64,000 nucleotides of DNA from Actinomycetales bacterium (GTDB lineage: Bacteria > Actinomycetota > Actinomycetes > Actinomycetales > Microbacteriaceae). How positions within the stretch are numbered: the first letter of the stretch is position 1; every line of letters starts with the position of its first letter. Below the pieces are notes generated by a model. That model was not told the DNA's origin and searched no databases. It saw only the letters and a list, made by a program, of their open reading frames with translations. The translations under genes and the position numbers were made by a program. The DNA lies in contig JAFKEN010000006.1 of the NCBI GenBank assembly GCA_017308515.1, positions 602,479-666,478 of the forward strand. The letters are read 5' to 3'. Shown here in pieces: positions 2,858 to 5,846 of this stretch.

Positions 2858-3073
2858 TCAGGCGCGCCCGTAGCGCTTGTGCACGGCTTGTTTGCTGACT
2901 TCGAGGCACAGAGCGATGAGCTGCCACGACGCGCCGGCGTTCCGGGCGCGTCGCACGGCCGTCGCCTCGATCCGATCGAGTTCGGCACGCATCCGATGAA
3001 CGGCGCGCAGGGCCTCGATCGGATCGTCGGACCCCGCTTCGGCCGCGAGCGTCGTGAGACCCGATCCATTCAT
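2858..3073 (-). CDS. Small HTH DNA-binding protein, probable autoregulator
   Basis: A 71-residue protein with a helix-turn-helix-like C-terminus (residues about 45-70, GASWQLIALCLEVSKQAVHKR), a type seen in small actinobacterial regulators. The start at 3073 fits a leaderless promoter: -35 TTGACC and -10 TATGGT (minus strand) spaced 17 bp, with 7 nt from the -10 to the ATG. An alternative ATG at 3085 would lie inside the -10. Two inverted repeats cover this promoter (see 3077-3120). It sits just upstream of the fused ABC exporter (minus strand) and divergent from a second ABC exporter, so it probably controls one or both. No ligand domain is visible. Confidence 0.7.
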   Translation of the reverse strand: MNGSGLTTLAAEAGSDDPIEALRAVHRMRAELDRIEATAVRRARNAGASWQLIALCLEVSKQAVHKRYGRA

Positions 3074-3076
3074 GTC

Positions 3077-3120
3077 GTCAACCATAGTTGACCTTCGACT
3101 CGGGGTCAATGCAGGTTGAC
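3077..3120 (-). promoter_or_regulatory. Promoter with two operator-like inverted repeats
   Basis: Minus-strand promoter: -35 TTGACC (complement of 3104-3109), 17-bp spacer, -10 TATGGT (complement of 3081-3086). Two inverted repeats overlay it: GTCAAC-N4-GTTGAC at 3077-3092 covers the -10, and GTCAAT-N4-GTTGAC at 3105-3120 covers the -35. The copies are offset by 28 bp. This is the layout of a repressor operator; binding by the adjacent HTH protein is inferred. Confidence 0.65.
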
Positions 3121-3186
3121 GCGCGGCCGCGCCAGGATCCGTCGCTGGCGGATGTGGACGCTGTCCACGATGTCGTCGCCCCGACA

Positions 3187-3199: not shown

Positions 3200-4168
3200 G
3201 TGACTCTCGCCGCCCCCTCCGCCGGAACGACCGGGGCCGGTGCCGCGGGCCCGGTGATCCGCGCCGTCGACCTGCGCAAGAGCTACGGCGATACCCACGC
3301 CGTCGACGGGCTCAGCTTCGAGGTGACGTCGGGGGAGGCCTTCGGCCTGCTCGGGCCCAACGGCGCCGGCAAGTCGACCACGATGCGCATGATCGGCGCG
3401 GTCACGACCCGCACCGGCGGCGAGCTCGAGATCCTCGGTCTCGACCCCGACCGCTCGGGCCCCGACATCCGCGCGCAGCTGGGCGTCGTGCCCCAGCAGG
3501 ACAATCTCGACGACGAGCTGCGGGTGCGCGAGAACCTCCTCGTCTACGGCCGCTACTTCGGCCTGCCCCGTGCGCAGGTCGCGCGCCGCGCCGACGAGCT
3601 GCTCGAGTTCGCGCAGCTCGCCGACCGGGCGAAGGCGCGCGTCGACGCGCTCTCGGGCGGCATGAAGCGCCGGCTCACGATCGCGCGGGCGCTCATCAGC
3701 GATCCGCGCATCCTGCTGCTCGACGAGCCGACGACCGGCCTCGATCCGCAGGCGCGGCACATCCTGTGGGATCGCCTGTTCCGCCTCAAGGAGCGCGGCA
3801 CCACGCTCGTGCTCACCACGCACCACATGGACGAGGCGGAGCAGCTGTGCGACCGGCTCGTGGTGGTCGACAAGGGCCGCATCATGGCCGAGGGATCGCC
3901 CGCCCAGCTGATCCGCGAGCACTCCAGTCGCGAGGTGCTCGAGCTGCGCTTCGGCTCCGACCGCAACGAGGCCGCCGCCGAGACGCTCGCGGGCGTCGGG
4001 GACCGCCTCGAGGTGCTCCCGGACCGCGTGCTCGTCTACGCGGCCGACGGCGAGGCGGCCCTCGTCGAGGCGCACGCGCGCGGCCTCGCGCCGATCACGA
4101 GCCTCGTGCGGCGCTCGAGCCTCGAAGACGTCTTCCTGCGGCTCACCGGCCGCTCGCTGATCGAATGA
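3200..4168 (+). CDS. ABC-2 type exporter ATP-binding protein (DrrA/NodI-like)
   Basis: A 322-residue ATPase energising an ABC-2 exporter. Walker A GPNGAGKST is at 52-60, signature LSGGMKRR at 151-158, Walker B ILLLDEP at 171-177, and a switch His follows in LTTHHMDEAEQLCDR. The C-terminal extension with SLEDVFLRLTG is the hallmark of drug/antibiotic-exporter ATPases of the DrrA type. The GTG start at 3200 was chosen because a -10 box (TAGGAT) lies 7 nt upstream and homology begins soon after. The stop overlaps the next ATG by 3 nt. Together with the two permeases it forms a three-gene exporter divergent from the HTH/ABC pair. The substrate cannot be told from sequence. Confidence 0.92.
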   Translation: MTLAAPSAGTTGAGAAGPVIRAVDLRKSYGDTHAVDGLSFEVTSGEAFGLLGPNGAGKSTTMRMIGAVTTRTGGELEILGLDPDRSGPDIRAQLGVVPQQDNLDDELRVRENLLVYGRYFGLPRAQVARRADELLEFAQLADRAKARVDALSGGMKRRLTIARALISDPRILLLDEPTTGLDPQARHILWDRLFRLKERGTTLVLTTHHMDEAEQLCDRLVVVDKGRIMAEGSPAQLIREHSSREVLELRFGSDRNEAAAETLAGVGDRLEVLPDRVLVYAADGEAALVEAHARGLAPITSLVRRSSLEDVFLRLTGRSLIE

Positions 4169-5010
4169 GCGCCCCGGCCCTGCCCGCGGTGTCGACGCCC
4201 ACCGCGGGGGGATCCGGCCCCCGTCGCGCGCCCCGGTTCGCGTGGTGGTACGTCACCGAGCATCTCCTCCGCGGAATGCGGGGCTACCTCCCGACGGTCG
4301 TCGCGACCGCGATCGGCACCCCGGTCGTCTACCTCGCCGTGTTCGGCATCGGCCTCGGGGCGCTCATCACCGAGAACGTCGCGCCCGCGGGTTCGGCCGC
4401 CACGACCTACCTGCAGTTCGTCGCCCCGGCCCTGCTGTGCATGTCGGCCTTTGCGCTCGCCTCCGAGGAGTTCAGCTTCGGCATCGCCCTGCACCTCACC
4501 TGGCGGAAGGTCTTCGAGGGCACCCGTGCGACCCCGATCGCCTCCGGCCAGATCGCCGACGGCTTCGTCGCCTTCGTCGCGATCCGCATGGTCATCACCG
4601 CGGGCGTCTACGGCGCGGTGATCGCGGCGTTCGGCGTCGTGCCGCTCGGGGCGATCCCGGCCCTCGTGCTGACCGGCGTGCTGGGCGGTCTCGCGGTGTC
4701 GCCGCTCGCCGTCTACGCCGCGCGCATCCAGGGCGAGAGCGGGCAGTTCGCGATCGTGCAGCGGGTGATCATCCTGCCGCTGACCCTGTTCTCGGGCACG
4801 CTGTTCCCGCTCACCCAGCTACCGATCTTCCTGCAGCCGATCGGGTGGATCTCGCCGCTGTGGCACGCCGCCGAGCTCGGCCGGTTCCTCGCGTTCGGGC
4901 CCTCCGGTCAGTGGGTGGCGGCGCTCGTGCACGTCGCCGTGCTCGTCGCGGTCGCCGCCGGCGGCTGGATCGGCCTGCGCGTCGTGCTCACCCGGAGGCT
5001 CGAGCGATGA
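4165..5010 (+). CDS. ABC-2 type transporter permease (first)
   Basis: A 281-residue membrane protein with about six hydrophobic segments and the ABC-2 membrane-domain pattern (WYVTEHLLRGMRG near the start, then IILPLTLFSGTLFPLTQLP before the last helices). The ATG overlaps the ATPase stop (ATGA), so translation is probably coupled. It pairs with the next gene as a heterodimeric permease, as in NodJ/DrrB-like exporters. Confidence 0.9.
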   Translation: MSAPALPAVSTPTAGGSGPRRAPRFAWWYVTEHLLRGMRGYLPTVVATAIGTPVVYLAVFGIGLGALITENVAPAGSAATTYLQFVAPALLCMSAFALASEEFSFGIALHLTWRKVFEGTRATPIASGQIADGFVAFVAIRMVITAGVYGAVIAAFGVVPLGAIPALVLTGVLGGLAVSPLAVYAARIQGESGQFAIVQRVIILPLTLFSGTLFPLTQLPIFLQPIGWISPLWHAAELGRFLAFGPSGQWVAALVHVAVLVAVAAGGWIGLRVVLTRRLER

Positions 5011-5846
5011 GCGCGACGACGACCTCCCGCCCGACCCGGCCCGACCCGGCGCGTCCCGGCGCCGGCGTGCGCGCGCTCTGGTCGGGCAACCCCGGCTCGA
5101 TCATCAACCGCGAGCTCATCGCGGCGCGCAGCACCAACTGGGCGGTGCTCGCCTCCGGCATCGCCGAGCCGATCTTCTACCTGCTCGCTCTCGGCATCGG
5201 GATCGGCGGATACGTCGGCGACATCGTCGCGGCCGACGGATCGCCCATCCCCTACGCCGCCTACATCGCCCCCGCCCTGCTGGCGGTCGCGGCGATGAAC
5301 GGCGCGCTCTACGACTCCACCTGGAACGTGTTCTTCAAGTTGCACGTGCAGCGCCACTACGAGGCGATGCTCGCGACGCCGCTCGGCCCGCTCGACGTCG
5401 CGGTGGGGCAGATCTCCTGGTCGCTGCTGCGCGGCGGCGTCTACGGGCTGGCGTTCCTCGGCGTCATGCAGGTGCTCGGGCTCAATCTGGCCTGGACGGC
5501 GCTGCTCGCGCTGCCCGCGATCCTGCTGGTCGCCTTCGGCTTCGCGAGCTTCGGCATGGGGCTGACGAGCTACCTGAAGAGCTTCCAGCAGATGGACTGG
5601 ATCTTCTTCGTCGTGCTGCCGATGTTCCTGCTGTCGGCGACGTTCTTCCCCATCACCGTCTACCCCGAGCCGGTGCAGTGGGTCGTCATGGCGCTGCCAC
5701 TCTGGCACGGGGTCGAACTCGTGCGCGGGCTCACGACCGGCCACCTCGACGCGGGGATGCTCGGCCACGTCGCGTACTACCTCGTGATGGCGGCGCTCGG
5801 GCTCACCTTCGCGACCCGCCGGCTGAAGGCGCTGTTCCTCAGCTGA
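5007..5846 (+). CDS. ABC-2 type transporter permease (second)
   Basis: A 279-residue paralogue of the preceding permease, again with six hydrophobic segments and the conserved PMFLLSATFFPITVYP stretch. The ATG overlaps the previous stop by 4 nt. The presence of two distinct permeases with a single ATPase suggests a 1:1 permease heterodimer with two ATPase copies. It ends 32 bp before the convergent ribH. Confidence 0.9.
   Translation: MSATTTSRPTRPDPARPGAGVRALWSGNPGSIINRELIAARSTNWAVLASGIAEPIFYLLALGIGIGGYVGDIVAADGSPIPYAAYIAPALLAVAAMNGALYDSTWNVFFKLHVQRHYEAMLATPLGPLDVAVGQISWSLLRGGVYGLAFLGVMQVLGLNLAWTALLALPAILLVAFGFASFGMGLTSYLKSFQQMDWIFFVVLPMFLLSATFFPITVYPEPVQWVVMALPLWHGVELVRGLTTGHLDAGMLGHVAYYLVMAALGLTFATRRLKALFLS

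Follow-up and report, generated by a model that had tools for sequence, protein, structure and literature searches.

The window analysed here, a stretch of 64,000 nucleotides from a genome of the Microbacteriaceae, carries near its start a small gene for a stand-alone helix-turn-helix (HTH) protein with two palindromic sites in its promoter (Table 1). The initial annotation had placed this regulator between two exporter loci, and this is what we find: an ABCB-type exporter gene lies 49 bp downstream on the same strand, and a DrrA/NodI-like ABC-2 exporter is encoded divergently. The downstream exporter combines ABC_membrane and ABC_tran on one polypeptide, as expected of an ABCB-type multidrug exporter, and has P-glycoproteins and BmrA among its best PDB matches. 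The HTH protein ends at residue 71 and was rightly described as too small for a ligand domain; a match to Clp_N was absent from both the HTH and the exporter proteins. AlphaFold2 predicted a confident four-helix monomer (pLDDT 91) in which helices 50-57 and 61-68 form the HTH. The protein has no match in NCBIfam and only a sub-threshold one in Pfam, its homologues match assorted HTH/sigma-region-4 models weakly, and Foldseek against the PDB returned low-confidence matches only, many of them to generic HTH proteins and none specific. Homologues were found in 114 of 300 genomes of the family.

Table 1. Features around the HTH gene, in coordinates of the 64,000-nucleotide window.
Feature	Position	Strand	Remarks
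ABCB-type (BmrA/MsbA-like) half-transporter exporter, 632 aa	910..2808	-	presumed same operon as HTH gene
Stand-alone HTH protein, 71 aa, probable autorepressor	2858..3073	-	predicted HTH helices 50-57, 61-68
Promoter-proximal operator, GTCAACCATAGTTGAC	3077..3092	.	overlies -10; perfect 6-4-6 palindrome
-10 element TATGGT	3081..3086	-	embedded in proximal operator
-35 element TTGACC	3104..3109	-	first five bases within distal operator
Promoter-distal operator, GTCAATGCAGGTTGAC (GTCAACCTGCATTGAC on gene strand)	3105..3120	.	contains -35 TTGAC
DrrA/NodI-like ABC-2 ATPase	3200..4168	+	divergent; GTG start, own -10 TAGGAT at about 3187
ABC-2 permease of divergent exporter	4165..5010	+	
Second ABC-2 permease of divergent exporter	5007..5846	+	

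The twin sites reported earlier, offset by 28 bp and laid over the -10 and -35 elements of a promoter with a 17-bp spacer, are present at 3077-3120 as described. Both are 16 bp long and of the GTCAAC-N4-GTTGAC type, with N4 centres spaced 28 bp apart; the distal operator GTCAATGCAGGTTGAC deviates by one half-site letter. On the minus strand, 17 bp separate TTGACC from TATGGT, and the order on the HTH strand is GTCAACCTGCATTGAC-CCCGAGTCGAAG-GTCAACTATGGTTGAC-GAC-ATG. Because the ATG of the HTH gene at 3073 follows only 7 nt after the -10 element, its mRNA is probably leaderless.

The suggestion that the regulator controls efflux can be upheld for the downstream exporter, in the form of operon linkage, but not for the divergent one. 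The operators lie off the core promoter of drrA, which is further away, and only some members of the exporter group have the divergent gene next to the HTH gene, so that control of the divergent exporter is unsupported and its ATPase cannot clearly be assigned to the regulated unit. Upstream of the drrA start, a perfect 6-3-6 palindrome, GTGGAC-GCT-GTCCAC, is found at 3153-3167. We considered it as a second operator for drrA and rejected it, as it is absent from six relatives with a divergent drrA.

Within the window alone, the sites would not attract attention: with up to two mismatches the pattern was found four times against 3.56 expected, which is unremarkable. In the 2.85-Mb host genome, however, the exact pattern has no second exact copy. 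It is conservation and not this window statistic that makes the twin-site observation certain. Among homologues picked by protein similarity only, both sites were present in all 29 family promoters; in a set of 80 named homologues across Actinomycetota, 74 promoters had two sites and five had one. The alignment of orthologous promoters that had been proposed as a check of the initial annotation thus shows the operators to be conserved. Random windows from the same loci held even a single site in 0 of 4770 (family set) and 38 of 15130 cases (named set). In operator-based searches, the twin pattern occurred in 53 of 300 family genomes and a looser version in 68 of 396 order genomes, and a reversed control pattern gave zero matches in both collections. 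An HTH gene adjoined the sites in 29 of 30 order-level loci selected by operator; loci fetched via the operator pattern (L035-L094) were excluded from the main counts to avoid circularity. At the exceptional locus (L065, 1501-1545), intact twin operators precede a truncated, N-terminally similar HTH frame that stops short of the recognition helix.

The exact palindrome was counted 69 times in 40 HTH-bearing genomes, with 65 copies inside HTH promoters, and once in 20 genomes for which no HTH match was listed. Given this near-exclusivity, the high-affinity regulon of the putative repressor appears to be limited to its own operon. The remaining four exact sites all belong to one genome (G212, at C5:59220-59324 and C1:428245; L212, L213), where three of them cluster within 105 bp and are possible extra targets. 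As a candidate for a wider regulon in the host genome, we found a lone near-palindrome with one mismatch between divergent genes (C4:439184). No HTH homologue was seen there, and we take this match as chance or as the site of another regulator.

The half-site sequence changes with the recognition helix. In a table of 165 loci, a few of which (L214-L219) were entered from operator-search coordinates, and whose counts represent related sequences and not independent events, so that the patterns are correlations, the QAVH(K/R) helix goes with GTCAAC-N4 in 114 and AGCAAC-N4 in 14 loci, QAAHK with AGCAAC in 8 of 9, QSVH(A/T/L) with GTCAGT in 11 of 11, and the QAAQKRF helix of fused ClpC2 proteins with GTCAAC-N5 in 11 of 12. 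An order-wide search for further GTCAGT-type twin sites gained one locus. RelI-like QAAFQ and QGAQQ proteins (two each) had none of these operators. From this co-variation it follows that the HTH protein itself most likely reads the sites, and a testable recognition code may connect helix residues (QAVH, QSVH, QAAQ) with half-site or spacing. The host genome contains a second HTH gene of the family outside the window (L190, G000:C4:77042-77276), behind which lie a Clp_N-like gene and a gene for a DrrA-type ATPase. The promoter of this second HTH gene shows the same twin geometry in the AGCAAC dialect, with the sites AGCAACTCATGTTGAC and AGCAACTACGGTTGCT. With such distinct operators, the 71-aa HTH circuit and that of its Clp_N-linked paralogue look insulated from each other.

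In the promoters of relatives, operator and promoter share the same bases. Of 91 promoters, 60 have a -35/-10 spacer of 17 bp and 28 have one of 18 bp, and the first ATG or GTG lies 2-5 nt past the proximal site in 90 of 92. At a centre spacing of 27, the TA of the -10 element mostly falls on the second base of N4, at 28-29 mostly on the first. Centre spacing tracks the promoter spacer and not whole helical turns, and thus gives no hint of cooperativity. One genus (L014, L016, L018) has its second operator shifted downstream by 18 bp, away from the -10 and at about +1 to +16, intact or nearly so and with a Shine-Dalgarno-type leader behind it; the two operators, both upstream of the HTH start, are here 46 bp apart centre to centre. 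An operator that is displaced yet conserved is not merely a promoter motif, and operator function is thereby set apart from promoter function.

The twin-operator layout as such is already known from ClpC2 (PMC10030653). In mycobacteria, ClpC2 (Rv2667) is associated with the pseudopalindrome CGTCAAC-n5-GTTGACG, which is duplicated in many species (Taylor et al. 2023, PMC10030653). These sites overlap both core elements (-35 and -10) of a promoter for which a leaderless transcript was inferred, ClpC2 binds them in EMSA and represses itself, and cyclomarin A releases it (PMC10030653). Our locus resembles this system in its GTCAAC/GTTGAC half-sites, in their duplication over -35 and -10, in a start codon within a few nucleotides, in its probable autoregulation and in the protein itself, which is homologous to the N-terminal region of ClpC2. 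With hhalign, alignment A2 matched the fused-ClpC2 profile at 97% (E = 1.2e-10), residues 28-70 corresponding to ClpC2 41-83. The salt bridge D46-R57 of the ClpC2 dimer is retained as D33-R44 in the 71-aa protein, and A43 and R44 are invariant in A2. A direct match to the ClpC2 structure 8ADA is weak (E = 0.008), and the homology rests on the profile-profile comparison.

The two systems also differ. ClpC2 is longer, at about 250 aa, and binds cyclomarin A through a Clp_N-like domain, whereas the 71-aa protein is without Clp_N. Fused ClpC2 loci (L178-L189) share the half-sites but have one extra central base (N5 versus N4 here), and their recognition helix reads QAAQKRF instead of QAVHKR. No exporter has been described in the ClpC2 operon, in contrast to the ABC exporter downstream of our HTH gene. 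A literature search on the operator together with an exporter or Microbacterium returned nothing relevant. What appears to be new is a ClpC2-type twin-operator autorepression by a sensor-less, stand-alone HTH protein that uses N4 sites and is coupled to efflux.

The published proposal for ClpC2 is that its C-terminal Clp_N-like domain contacts DNA, and R185A/R189A exchanges weakened binding (PMC10030653). Since the operators occur with HTH proteins whether or not a Clp_N domain is present, the N-terminal HTH is most likely the sequence-specific reader. This suggests that also in ClpC2 sequence specificity comes from the N-terminal HTH instead of the C-terminal domain preferred in the published account, and we predict that ClpC2 reads DNA through this HTH. 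The effect of R185A/R189A could then reflect an auxiliary contact. Of the deposited ClpC2 structures (PDB 8ADA, 8AD9), 8ADA covers the N-terminal fragment 4-72 and ends with V72, directly before the recognition helix TKQAAQKRF of full-length homologues, and this may be the reason that the published proposal turned to the C-terminal domain.

Relatives carry different genes behind the HTH gene. The exporter follows in the Microbacteriaceae and at a few other loci (L076-L078, L117-L118), and a Clp_N gene, resembling a split ClpC2, in Streptomyces, Actinomadura, Rhodococcus, Isoptericola and relatives. At Arthrobacter-type loci, we saw no common downstream gene, and the HTH gene apparently stands alone. 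One type of twin-operator promoter serves a Clp_N sponge, an exporter or apparently nothing, and the ClpC2 circuit is a single instance within a modular family of mini-repressors that spans the phylum. This family, the ClpC2 parallel and the leaderless start were overlooked in the initial annotation, the interpretation of which is supported in part.

Its proposal of autoregulation has gained strong support, as the operators are conserved upstream of orthologues, are almost absent elsewhere and co-vary with the recognition helix. We consider it very probable that the 71-aa HTH protein, as a homodimer, represses its own leaderless HTH-exporter operon through two promoter-embedded operators. One homodimer would bind each palindrome, with the GTTGAC-type half of the distal operator doubling as the -35 TTGAC, while the middle of the proximal one provides the -10 TANNGT. 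Bound HTH protein would exclude RNA polymerase and shut off the operon of HTH and ABC exporter, resulting in negative feedback on the repressor plus its exporter. In this scheme, we infer that the protein represses and does not activate, that it binds as a dimer, that the exporter is co-transcribed and that the operon is inducible. As no Clp_N sensor is fused to the HTH, the exporter must be derepressed in some other way; a ligand on the HTH dimer, proteolysis of the repressor or a partner protein are candidates. A conserved actinobacterial drug-type exporter would in this way be given a single dedicated regulator.

Possibly, although we regard it as unlikely, the exporter operon represents a split ClpC2 defence. 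A signal perceived by another protein, such as ClpC1 or the separate Clp_N protein of this genome, would release the HTH protein, and a proteostasis alarm would induce a peptide or drug exporter. Clp-targeting peptide antibiotics or unfolded protein might be the trigger, and the exporter would replace the ClpC2 sponge.

We consider it very unlikely that a different regulator binds the operators, e.g., a Clp_N protein or a global repressor. Such a role would agree with the DNA contact proposed for the Clp_N-like domain of ClpC2 and the weakened binding of R185A/R189A (PMC10030653) and with the separate HTH and Clp_N pair in the host genome. However, the operators follow the HTH gene whether its neighbour is a Clp_N gene, an exporter or apparently nothing related, and the Clp_N-linked paralogue has its own AGCAAC dialect.

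We are similarly disinclined to see the HTH protein as an activator of its promoter, or as a RelI-type antitoxin-like autoregulator, instead of an efflux repressor. RelI (PDB 9SDC) is the best-scoring solved relative of the 71-aa protein (profile E = 1.5e-7), and this antitoxin (Rv2664, PMC13284704) is likewise a small HTH protein from actinobacteria that belongs to the same superfamily; the HTH region common to RelI and ClpC2 has been noted before (PMC13284704). However, RelI has a partner toxin, RelS, that occupies its HTH, and no operator was reported (PMC13284704). A RelS/BrnT-like toxin gene is absent next to our HTH gene, the neighbours being two ABC exporter loci and the gene downstream an exporter. 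The RelI helix reads QAAFQRF, and the two RelI-like loci examined (QAAFQ) are without twin operators, matching the published lack of inverted repeats upstream of RelSI (PMC13284704). Sites over both -35 and -10 moreover have an exclusion geometry, and ClpC2 represses from such sites.

That the sites are merely a strong, unusual sigma promoter (TTGAC, TANNGT) with incidental palindromes is hardly credible and largely refuted: -35 and -10 indeed lie inside the sites at a preserved spacer of 17-18 bp, but the outer GTCAAC halves, needed by no promoter element, are equally conserved, the second operator persists off the -10 in L014, L016 and L018, half-sites change with the recognition helix, and the motif is restricted to HTH promoters, which contain 65 of the 69 exact sites.

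Efflux repressors of the QacR/TetR, LmrR/PadR and MarR types contain ligand domains and repress themselves via palindromic operators over exporter-operon promoters. Unlike these, the 71-aa HTH protein has no ligand-binding domain, and it matched no family profile that would place it with MarR, TetR or PadR. At the edge of the window, a TrmH-type rRNA-methyltransferase-like gene on the plus strand (about 30-804) is seemingly split over two frames near 180-226, possibly by a frameshift or a sequencing error.
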